Assembly: GCA_000467715.1 (NCBI GenBank)
Contig: AJFK01000612.1
Span: forward strand, 62,001 to 126,000
DNA: 64,000 nucleotides
Source: Hysterium pulicare CBS 123377
Lineage: Eukaryota; Ascomycota; Dothideomycetes; Hysteriales; Hysteriaceae
Direction of reading: 5' to 3'
Both the position numbers and the translations under genes were made by a program. Below are positions 3,229-7,460 of the stretch, in pieces. The notes under the pieces are model-generated. The model was not told the DNA's origin. It made no database searches and saw nothing but the letters and a program-made list of their open reading frames with translations. Numbering within the stretch: position 1 is the first letter of the stretch; the number at the start of each line of letters is the position of its first letter.

Positions 3229-6200
3229 ATGCCCGCGCTCAAGGGCATCGAATGCTCGATAGAGCTGGCTCGCTCTGGCAAAAGGCTACATGAATATGGG
3301 ACCACTTACGGCGATGGCGTCGTTGACACATTCATTGCTGTTCCAACCGATGAGAATGTGCCCTTCACGATCCGCTTTATGTCGACCGATTTTATTGCCC
3401 CAGGCTTGGCCTTCTTTGTTTATATCGATGGCACATATCATTGTAACCGCATTCGCGCAGGGCTCAAGATGTCCAAAAGCGTATGCGACTTTCACTTACG
3501 CCAGAAGGAACATAAAACTGAAAATAATTTCATGGGCCATGAATGGAACTTTAATAAGCTCGACATCGGTAAGTATTCGCCTTTGAAAGCACTTGTCTGC
3601 TGCTAAACATAAGAACAGTGTCCGCAGATGAAGCACCAGCTATTAACCCGCTTATTCTCAAAAATCTCGGCTCAATTGAAATCGTTGTTTTGCGTTGCAA
3701 GGACGAACCGGCCCAGCCAACCCCATCCGACTTACGGTCAGCCATGAAGTCTGCTAGTAAGAAGGGCCGCCATGTTAGGATCGAGGCTCCCTTTGAACAT
3801 GTTGTAGCGAAACCAGCAGCAACCGACAATGGGCACAACGAGATCGAAACTGGAGATATGTTTGGTTTGTTCGACGGAGCAGCCGATGCACCAGAGCATA
3901 ATTTTGGAATGGACGGTCGCTATGAAGAGCGTGGTAGGCCGTATGATGGCCCAGCAGGTTATAGCCAGGATTGGCAGTTGCCCGGCAGATACGGCCCCGA
4001 TTGGGAAATCCGCAACAGCCAGTTCAGACATGTTGAACATCGGCGTGTCAACAGCAGGCATCAAGACGATGATGTTCAAACGATAAATACGACGCCTGAG
4101 CGACCCGAGCGGAGGAGATACCCTTCTGGCAAGCCCCAGCGGGAATCGATGTCATCTGAAATTAGCCGTCGCCCCCCTAAATCGTTCACATCATCGGAAG
4201 GTATGAAGAGCTATATCGACGACCGGGAGCATCCAGTATACCTTCCTCACCAGCCGATTTACCCACAACCTCCATATTCGAGAGTCAATGAATGGGAATA
4301 CGTTTACAACAGTGGCGGCACAAAGCCTCCAGCTCCGCCAGTTGAGCATAGGTATGGCGATAGTGCCCAAGAGAGGCGTCCTCCACCTTCATCGGCGGAT
4401 GCCGAGAGTAATGCATTCTGGGATCGTCTCCCTCAACGCAATGAGCCTTATCAGCATACCGAAGGTGCCACTCCACAGTTCATTCCGCCGGAATACGACA
4501 GGTCATGGGCTATCCCAAACGCTGAAGCTGCGCCACGCAACGCTTACTCCTACGGTGCTAACATGACCGGAGCTTGGAACCAAGCGAATGGCAGTCATGT
4601 CAGTGGATGGGAATCCCGACGTGACCGACAGGCCCCCGGACTCCCATCACATGCTTCAGATCTCCATCATGTGTTAGATCCCATACTAACAATGCATCAC
4701 ATGGCTGCACAAAGCCGAGGAAACGGAGACTCGAGGGGCCCCCCCGAACAAAATGGCTGGTCCTCCGGTCATGATGGCAACGGCCCATGGAAAGGCTCAG
4801 ATCAGAAGTATGGCCGGGATCAACCGCAGAAGCAGAAGGTGGCAGACTCGTGGGCAAGTACCAGTGAAAAGGATTCATGGGGTGACAATGCTAAGCTTGC
4901 GACTGATACATGGGACTCCAGCGGAGGCAATAACCTATGGAGTGGCAAAGTGGAAATCCTCTCCGGAGAACCGAAGCAGAAGAGGGCAGACTCGTGGGAT
5001 AGCAACAGTACATGGGGAGATCTTGCTAAGCCTGCAACTGATACTTGGGGTTCTAGCGGAGGAAATACATGGGGCCAAAAGGGCGAACCTCATTCTGGAG
5101 AAGCGAAGCAGCTCGAAATTCCAGTCAACAAATCTCGTGGTTTTCAAGACCTGTGGGGTTCTGGTGTGCGCGATAATGTCAAGGAGTTTGGAGGAGCACA
5201 GTGGTCTGCATCAACCACCGAGAAACCAAGCACTCGCGGAGATGGATGGGGTTCAAGCGAAAAACAAGCACAAGACCAAGCTCCCTCGAATGATCACGGC
5301 TGGGGCTCAGGCAACAACAACGGCCAAGATGGTAATGCTTCCAACAGTCAAGGCTGGAACTGGGGTTCGGGCGGTAACAAAGGCCAGGATGATAATGCTT
5401 CAGACAATCAAGGCTGGAACTGGGGTTCAAGCAGTAACCACGGTCTAGATGAGAAAGCTTCGAATGACCAAGGCTGGAGCTGGGGGGGTTTAGGCGATAA
5501 CAACGGTCATGGTGGCAGTACTTCAACTAACCACGGCTGGGGCGTGAGCGATGGTAACGGACAAGATCACGCTACGTCCAATACTCAAAGTTGGGGTGTC
5601 GACGACAAAGATGGACAAAACCACTCCGGGTCCAATGATAAAGGCTGGGGCTCAAGCAATGACAATGGACAAGAGCATCCCTCATCCGAACACCAAGGCT
5701 GGGGCACAGCAAATCCTGGAAATACAAATAATGACTCGGCAAATGTTGTTAACGACTCGACATGGGGTAATGTCAATCAGGCTGGATCAAACAACCAAAG
5801 CTGGGACTCTACTGCAAATTCAGATGAGCATGCCTGGGGCACCACGAACGACCATAAAGAGTCTACAGAGAATCAAAACTGGAACGTCTCCGGCGCTGAC
5901 AGCCTCAAAAATGACAATTCGAACAACTGGAATGCCAACGATGCCACTACAGAACAACCTTCCTGGAATGGGGGTAACGACAACAATGACAATGGCGAGC
6001 AGGCCAATAATAATGTACAAGAGGGGAACTCTTGGGGCCATGATGACAATCAGAACAACGATAACGAGAACTCAACCGGGGCCGACGCTTGGAATCATAA
6101 CGATTCCACTAAACAGACTGATACGGGTCAAAACGGACAGTCCAACAATGATAACAATGGATGGAATAACGACACTCCCAAGAACCAGGCTAGCTCCTGG

Positions 6201-7235
6201 AACAACAATCAAATAAACCAAGAAGGTGCTTGGAATGGAGACAATCAGTATACCTCCAAGAAGAACTCTAGTTCCAAAGTAGAGGTGGAGTCGAAACCAA
6301 TGTTCGGCACGAGTCCCTTCTACCAAGGTCTTCCCGCAGGTCCACAGCCTTATTGGCTTGATTGGCGGGCATCCGATCCAGTCCAACCACTCCCTGTTAT
6401 CCCCAAGGCTATGGCTAGTGCCAGATCAGGAGCCACGAAGATTGGAGAAGCAGTGCCTTTGTATAAGATTCCTTTATCTCATGCCGAGAAGCAAAAGCTT
6501 GAACATCAAGTGCGAGCCGGTCCCGGGGTCCCATGGCATCACCGTAAGGGAAGACCAGCTTATATAGATCTAATTGAAGCACCAGTAAGTTCTTAGACTA
6601 ACTTTGCAATTGTTCAAGCATTAACGTTTCTACACTTTCAGTACGCCATTTTCAGGTTCAAGTATCGCAGCCGAGCCATGCTGAAGCAGATATTTGGACA
6701 CGATGTCACTGCAGCTTCAGTATCGGTATTAGAAGACAGCGATGAAGCCATCAAGGCGAAATTGCGTCACCGCAGCAAAGACGAGATCATCGCAGAACTC
6801 TTGAAAATGAGATCCACCGTACAGCCCAATGCTGGCGTCTCTCCAACTAATGATGTCAGCCCTGCTGGGGCATGGAACGACAATGCTAGCCATCACTCTG
6901 GGAAGAGCGATCGAACCGTAACGCCCACATCATACAAGGCCTGGGGCCAAGCATCCAAGCATTCCAATTCCCAGAAGGCGGCGTCTGATCATGGTTCAGT
7001 GAAAGGAAATAATAACAACGGTAAAGGAGGCACTGGTGGACAATGGGATACTGGCAACAATGATGCAGCCGGAGGCAATTCATGGGGACAAGACAACAAC
7101 AACGGAACCGATGGAAATACATGGGGACAAAACAACAATGCTGCAAGTGGAGGAAATGGATGGGGATCCGGCGGGGCCACAGAACCGACCGGTGCTTGGG
7201 GCGGTGGCGGTGGTGGTGCTAATGTTGCGTGGTGA
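3229..7235 (+). CDS. DUF7918-like protein with a very long WG/GW- and Asn-rich region
   Basis: Exons 3229-3568, 3619-6584 and 6642-7235 give 1299 aa in one frame. The start is the first in-frame ATG; the frame extends upstream only through a GTG. Residues 1 to about 135 form a compact beta-rich domain (IRFMSTDFIAPGLAFFVYID) resembling the fungal DUF7918 family, whose function is unknown to me. About residues 150-350 are polar and low in complexity. From about residue 400 to 900 there are roughly 27 tryptophans, nearly all followed by Gly or Asn in Gly/Asn/Ser/Asp context, e.g. QGWNWGSGGN. A folded patch follows (YAIFRFKYRSRAMLKQIFG and on), then a second short WG-rich tail. Such tryptophans are the hallmark of Argonaute-binding hooks, but no binding domain is proven. 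Other possibilities are a condensate-forming or prion-like protein. No signal peptide or membrane segment. Confidence 0.85.
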
Positions 7236-7374: not shown

Positions 7375-7460
7375 TTCTCTGTTTTTCTGCTTCTTTCTTT
7401 TCTTTTCTGTTCTCTTTTCTTTTCTGTTCTCTTTTCTTTTCTCTGCCTGTTTTCCATTCC
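7375..7460 (+). repeat. Pyrimidine tract with a perfect 17-bp tandem duplication
   Basis: The plus strand is almost pure C/T for about 85 bases. Inside it the 17-mer ctgttctcttttctttt occurs twice in tandem without mismatch (7407-7423 and 7424-7440). It lies about 140 bp behind the stop of the WG-rich gene, so it is likely in the 3' UTR or terminator region. Confidence 0.85.

Follow-up and report, generated by a model that had tools for sequence, protein, structure and literature searches.

We show that the DUF7918 domain of a 1299-residue protein, encoded in the 64,000-nucleotide stretch of Hysterium pulicare DNA that we analysed (the window), is interrupted by an insert of about 900 residues carrying a long array of tryptophans, and that the domain resumes behind this insert. 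This is new relative to the architecture put forward in the first-pass annotation, in which the Trp-rich region was joined to a DUF7918-like head. The head is indeed there, as Pfam recognizes it, but the Trp-rich region does not follow it: it lies within the domain, whose C-terminal part comes after the block. The broken domain is a matter of architecture, not of descent. Judging from the sequence, we tentatively regard the capture of Argonaute proteins as the best single explanation of the Trp array. It accounts for the Trp-Gly pattern and the scarcity of Tyr and Phe, as well as for the spacing and multivalency of the tryptophans.

The protein is the product of one gene on the forward strand, at 3229-7235, with three exons (Table 1), as obtained from the open frame and an enumeration of splice sites. 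Both introns were called from GTAAG and CAG signals together with the uninterrupted frame. For the first intron other in-frame acceptors end at 3627 and 3639, with which the protein would lose 3 or 7 residues. For the second, an in-frame acceptor ending at 6596 would add 15 residues to the protein, but with an intron of only 12 bases. Between the end of DUF7918 and the WG tail there is a helix-like segment, KAKLRHRSKDEIIAELLKMR (residues 1119-1175, positions 6690-6860), without Pfam match. On the 3' side of the stop codon, a pyrimidine-rich tandem repeat at 7394-7444 (TCTTTTCTTTTCTGTTC, 2.8 copies, 100% matches) is probably within the 3' untranslated region. Long open frames on both strands overlap the WG block between 4600 and 6425 (e.g. 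4690-5448 on the forward strand and 6072-6425 on the reverse strand), probably because the repeat periods are multiples of three. Since such overlapping frames are expected from these periods, we rejected the idea that the block is a frame artefact. We also rejected, by eye, that this is a secreted or cell-wall protein, as its start has no signal-like character.

Table 1. Coordinates of the gene, its domain parts and its Trp-rich regions, numbered along the window.
Feature	Positions	Strand	Residues	Description	Basis
Exon 1	3229..3568	+	1-113 and first base of next codon	bulk of DUF7918 N-terminal part	open frame, splice sites, Pfam match
DUF7918 N part	3271..3752, spans intron 1	+	15-158	profile positions 8-162 of 228	
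Intron 1	3569..3618	+		GTAAG...CAG, 50 bases	sequence signals only
Exon 2	3619..6584	+		end of DUF7918 N part, Pro/Arg/Glu-rich linker, WG block, start of DUF7918 C part	1007-residue open frame, gene model
Insert in DUF7918	3753..6491	+	159-1071	about 900 residues between profile positions 162 and 174	
Main WG/GW/WN block	4569..6248	+	431-990	37 W, 2 F, 1 Y; 49% G+N+S+Q; net charge -42	
Nine repeat units	5232..5729	+		period 18-21 residues, pattern S-x-x-x-G-W-(G/N); Trp identical in 9/9	
60-base tandem array	5300-5485			underlies part of main block	TRF
DUF7918 C part	6492..6689, spans intron 2	+	1072-1118	profile positions 174-221	
Intron 2	6585..6641	+		GTAAG...CAG, 57 bases; interrupts DUF7918 C part	sequence signals only
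Exon 3	6642..7235	+		end of DUF7918 C part, helix-like segment, second WG cluster, stop codon	
C-terminal WG tail	6861..7232	+	1176-1299	8 W, last five gaps 11-13 residues, final residue W	
39-base tandem array	7055-7166			underlies C-terminal tail	TRF

DUF7918 (Pfam PF25534) matches the whole protein in two stretches with an E-value of 1.8e-15 and 58 bits, for a cut-off of 27. The Pfam output for the whole protein locates just the better of the two stretches, and the parts were placed by separate scans. The N part, found when residues 1-205 are scanned alone, has an E-value of 6.4e-10 (39.9 bits), and the C part scanned alone has one of 1.1e-5 with 26.1 bits, slightly below the 27-bit cut-off. 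The domain is thus not contiguous: its two matches stand about 900 residues apart and in profile order. A nearly complete DUF7918 is therefore present in two parts, which makes the Trp block and the Pro/Arg/Glu-rich linker an insert in one loop. Further DUF7918 matches, at least three, are present in the genome on contigs C395, C385 and C36 (the window gene itself is unlisted among them). The C395 and C385 paralogs are compact at the place of the insert, and C36 ends at a contig edge. After this place the domain continues with PFATFSFRYRSRGM in C395 and with PYAVFTFLYRGE in C385, where the window protein has PYAIFRFKYRSRAML. Profile positions 124-216 take up 100 codons in C385, and positions 115-218 fit within 372 bases, introns included, in C395. 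The C385 paralog (frame 727-1821) has a long charged insert of its own, rich in Lys/Arg and then in Asp/Glu, which is found upstream of IKVALFRV and so at another place than in the window gene; DUF7918 loops therefore seem tolerant of insertions.

Pfam finds no family besides DUF7918 in this protein at E-values up to 1, and the DUF7918 head gave no significant hit in the PDB (best E-value 0.28). Relatives of the head were absent from viral_contigs and genome_contigs, two collections expected to be without fungi. Among open-licence PMC papers we found none under the name DUF7918, and among the matches listed there (titles and abstract starts) none dealt with a DUF7918 protein with WG repeats.

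The whole protein contains 54 Trp, 22 WG and 12 GW. The first-pass annotation had counted roughly 27 tryptophans between 4800 and 7235, nearly all of them in WG, WN or GW. The Trp-rich region holds up, but the count was too low, as the residues coded by this interval include 44 W; 33 of these 44 are in the named motifs (22 WG, 10 GW and 10 WN). The second cluster that it placed at the C-terminus is present in the tail (Table 1). In the main block the residues I, L, V, M, F, Y and C together make up 6%, and successive tryptophans are at least 10 residues apart in 29 of the 36 gaps (median 15.5). The stretch has the composition of an AGO hook, i.e. reiterated WG/GW in a surrounding rich in G, S, N, D and T and poor in hydrophobic residues, and the main block also has the spacing of about 10 residues or more between Trp that goes with it. 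The likeness to Argonaute hooks noted at first sight is thus borne out by the enrichment of WG, by Trp being nearly the sole aromatic residue, by the spacing and by the invariance of Trp among nine repeat units.

Shuffling residues 390-1299, a procedure that overstates independence because tandem duplication copies motifs, gave on average 6.6 WG (sd 2.3) against the 22 observed, a number attained in 0 of 5000 shuffles. GW occurs 12 times, for 6.7 in shuffled sequences, and this is attained in 2.7% of them. Trp followed by N, D or S shows no enrichment, with 19 cases for 15.2 in shuffled sequences (attained in 14.6% of them). In residues 1060-1299 alone there are 5 WG for 1.3 when shuffled (0.5%), and GW is not enriched. 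The density of these motifs is unusual in the window: among its 159 open frames of at least 100 residues, the best 100-residue stretch has 12 WG/GW in the main frame of this gene, 6 in the frame of its last exon and 0-3 in the other 157. Elsewhere in the genome, the maximum per 100 residues is 4 among 273 frames drawn from 48 further loci, a background that covers 158 kb of 37 Mb, is biased by the choice of 30 of the 48 loci with a TGGGG pattern, and had overlapping loci partly removed. The pattern itself occurs at 358 places genome-wide, for 167 of its reverse, and is too unspecific for counting WG arrays. Searching the genome with the whole protein returned the gene itself only, and so did the repeat block at E-values up to 10, a search in which the handling of low complexity may hide other arrays. 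No PDB chain was similar to the WG block at E-values up to 10, and such regions align poorly.

How did so many tryptophans accumulate? We picked nine units for their regular period and aligned them on their first Trp, with 15 columns each. The Gly before Trp is kept in 8/9 units, and so is the Ser at position -5. In the other 14 columns, those of Gly and Ser among them, a mean of 4.6 of the nine units differ from the commonest residue, and in the Trp column none does. When two units had the same residue (Gly, Ser, Thr, Ala, Pro, Val, Arg or Leu), their codons had different third bases in 50 of 96 pairs; the repeat units are therefore not fresh copies and have had time to change. This pattern suggests selection for a motif S-x-x-x-G-W-(G/N) in the encoded protein. 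One might instead think of neutral or weakly constrained growth by slippage and unequal exchange in a loop tolerant of hydrophilic sequence, Trp-Gly having spread with the founder unit. The 60- and 39-base tandem arrays fit such growth, as does a further diverged duplication in residues 523-610, seen by eye, in which Trp is aligned too, and the C385 paralog likewise has a long charged insert, further upstream in its DUF7918. But divergence among the nine units, which affects most columns as well as third bases, has left Trp the same in 9/9 (Poisson value 0.01, which is rough and concerns a single column of one gene in chosen units), and Trp continues through residues 820-990, outside the arrays reported by TRF. 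Neutral growth accounts for the arrays and less well for the retention of Trp, and we consider it improbable.

The composition might also be that of a condensate scaffold that works without Argonaute, in which tryptophans are stickers among Gly/Asn/Ser/Asp spacers and serve self-association or RNA granules. This explains the composition almost as well as Argonaute capture does: the sequence is of low complexity (G+N+S+Q reach 53% in the tail, close to their share in the block), the array is long and regular, the block has a net charge of -42, there are Asn-rich stretches, and no Argonaute-hook family is matched. Yet the part of generic sticker usually falls to Tyr or Phe, and these are nearly missing here, with 3 of the 40 aromatics of the block. 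That Trp never varies, and that the Gly next to it and the Ser at -5 persist in 8/9 units, also suggests a defined motif, although the lack of Trp swaps within units says little, because Trp codons are more than one base change away from those of Phe and Tyr. We thus see the condensate scaffold as a serious but rather unlikely alternative.

Argonaute capture requires an Argonaute. The genome (37.2 Mb in 596 contigs) has four Argonaute loci above the PF02171 cut-off, on C302, C249, C307 and C217, and a fifth match below it. It also has two Dicer loci and RdRP matches on four contigs. On two of these contigs stop codons interrupt the match, and they may belong to introns. Possible partners of the WG protein therefore exist. 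In an alignment of the four PIWI frames to human AGO2, Arabidopsis AGO10 and Neurospora QDE-2, we compared seven pocket residues known from the literature (P590, F659, K660, R688, C691, E695 and P700 in human AGO2 numbering). Passages of PMC5147811 give K803/E838 and P733/F802 as pocket residues of worm ALG-1; subtracting 143 from these numbers, we equated them with K660/E695 and P590/F659 of human AGO2, and the letters agree. P590, K660 and R688 are mutated in human AGO2 in excerpts of PMC11336974 and PMC9187665, where P590G with R688S is a Trp-pocket mutant in use, and C691 and P700 are assigned to pocket 3 in an excerpt of PMC9262622.

Of these seven residues, the C302 Argonaute keeps three (P590, R688, P700), C217 two (P590, P700), C249 one (P700) and C307 one (R688), compared with three in QDE-2 (R688, C691, P700) and six in AGO10 (all but F659). 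K660, F659 and E695 are found in none of the four host proteins, P590 in two and R688 in two. As far as this alignment goes, the host Argonautes keep the animal pocket set only in part, and the most promising partner is the Argonaute on C302. A 2025 survey (PMC12477606) reports that in fungi at large pocket 3 is distinctly conserved and pocket 2 is not, and that fungal Trp-pocket sites are variable and outside a shared repertoire despite reports of binding. Fungal Trp pockets may be built differently from animal ones. The position of F653 in human AGO2, which we take to line a Trp pocket, has Trp in all four Argonautes and in QDE-2, and Phe in AGO2 and AGO10. By analogy, this Trp could fill a pocket like W732 of plant AGO10, which is at another place and is reported to do so in the same survey (PMC12477606). 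In the C217 Argonaute the PIWI match at 1501-2166 reads GAHIAHPG where human AGO2 has GADVTHPP, and D597 appears replaced by His. This residue is presumably the first catalytic Asp of AGO2, and the C217 protein may therefore be slicer-dead or decaying.

Several observations count against Argonaute capture. Few animal pocket residues are kept, fungal sites are variable, there is no excess of Trp followed by N, D or S over shuffled sequences, and the block ends in an Asn-rich part where WN outnumbers WG. There is no Argonaute-hook family in the protein (Pfam, E-values up to 1). Besides the region of the gene itself, the window has 28 frames of at least 200 residues, and we scanned 20 of them with Pfam. 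The 11 with a match include no known RNAi component; they correspond to PP2C, DEAH and DEAD helicases, WD40, Nop14, a mitochondrial ribosomal protein, PX/Vps5, an alpha/beta hydrolase and three DUF families. The Nop14 gene scores 587 bits with PDB chain 5oql_B, presumably from Chaetomium thermophilum, and 272 bits with the next Nop14 chain, presumably from yeast, a difference that would suit a filamentous ascomycete.

The Trp motifs might instead be read by other proteins with Trp pockets, chiefly Caf40/CNOT9 of CCR4-NOT, or PAN3, in which case the window protein would be an adaptor of mRNA decay. The genome encodes Caf40 (PF04078, E-value 2.6e-80), and the W-binding pockets of CNOT9 are reportedly linked to miRNA silencing. 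But as Caf40 occurs widely among eukaryotes, finding its gene here does little to tell the explanations apart, and we hold this alternative to be quite unlikely. Any explanation other than those discussed here seems very improbable.

Argonaute capture finds partial parallels in known systems. GW182/TNRC6 of animals similarly has a long low-complexity region with many WG/GW and a multivalent design, and its Trp are ten or more residues apart, as stated for TNRC6 sites in an excerpt of PMC9262622. Unlike GW182/TNRC6, the window protein matches no GW182, hook or silencing-domain model (Pfam at E-values up to 1, PDB up to 10), it carries DUF7918, and the Argonautes of its host are without most animal pocket residues. 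In Tas3 of fission yeast and in NRPE1 and SPT5L of plants, the Argonaute hook is an appendage on a protein with another job. The window protein resembles them, by description, in this appendage design, whereas their folded partner is another one and its own motifs are inside a domain loop and in a tail. It shares with DUF7918 proteins the two domain parts in their order, and differs from them by the Trp-rich insert of some 900 residues, the two paralogs that cover this place being compact. Gwo1 and Gwc1 of Cryptococcus neoformans, which we compared by description only, are fungal WG/GW proteins tied to RNAi, but of a basidiomycete host, and we know of no report of DUF7918 in either. Excerpts of PMC6643885 place Gwo1 with Ago1 in a P-body complex and have GWO1 emerge from a transposon-silencing screen, and Gwo1 and Gwc1 are listed as a GW182-like and a GW/WG protein in an excerpt of PMC4778953. 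By analogy, Gwo1 is a fungal precedent for Argonaute capture. Argonaute-binding proteins of other fungi are named in passages of PMC6468904 and PMC5897359 in which WG motifs go unmentioned.

If the array does capture Argonaute, the folded DUF7918 domain would display a putatively disordered loop of about 900 residues and a tail, both with regularly spaced Trp motifs. The Trp side chains would dock, several per partner, in the PIWI-domain pockets of one of the host Argonautes. One scaffold would then gather several complexes of Argonaute and small RNA, as GW182 does in animals and as Gwo1 may do in Cryptococcus, and DUF7918 would be the address, i.e. it would determine where the complex is brought. 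One might go further and speculate on a fungal class of Argonaute scaffolds, in which an array of Trp hooks grew inside a DUF7918 loop, independently of GW182, and reads pockets that are not of the animal type; we find this generalization doubtful. For asking whether fungal Argonautes use Trp pockets in general, a block and tail with 45 tryptophans in a genome with four Argonautes make a good substrate. If true, Argonaute scaffolding would supply the first function for DUF7918.
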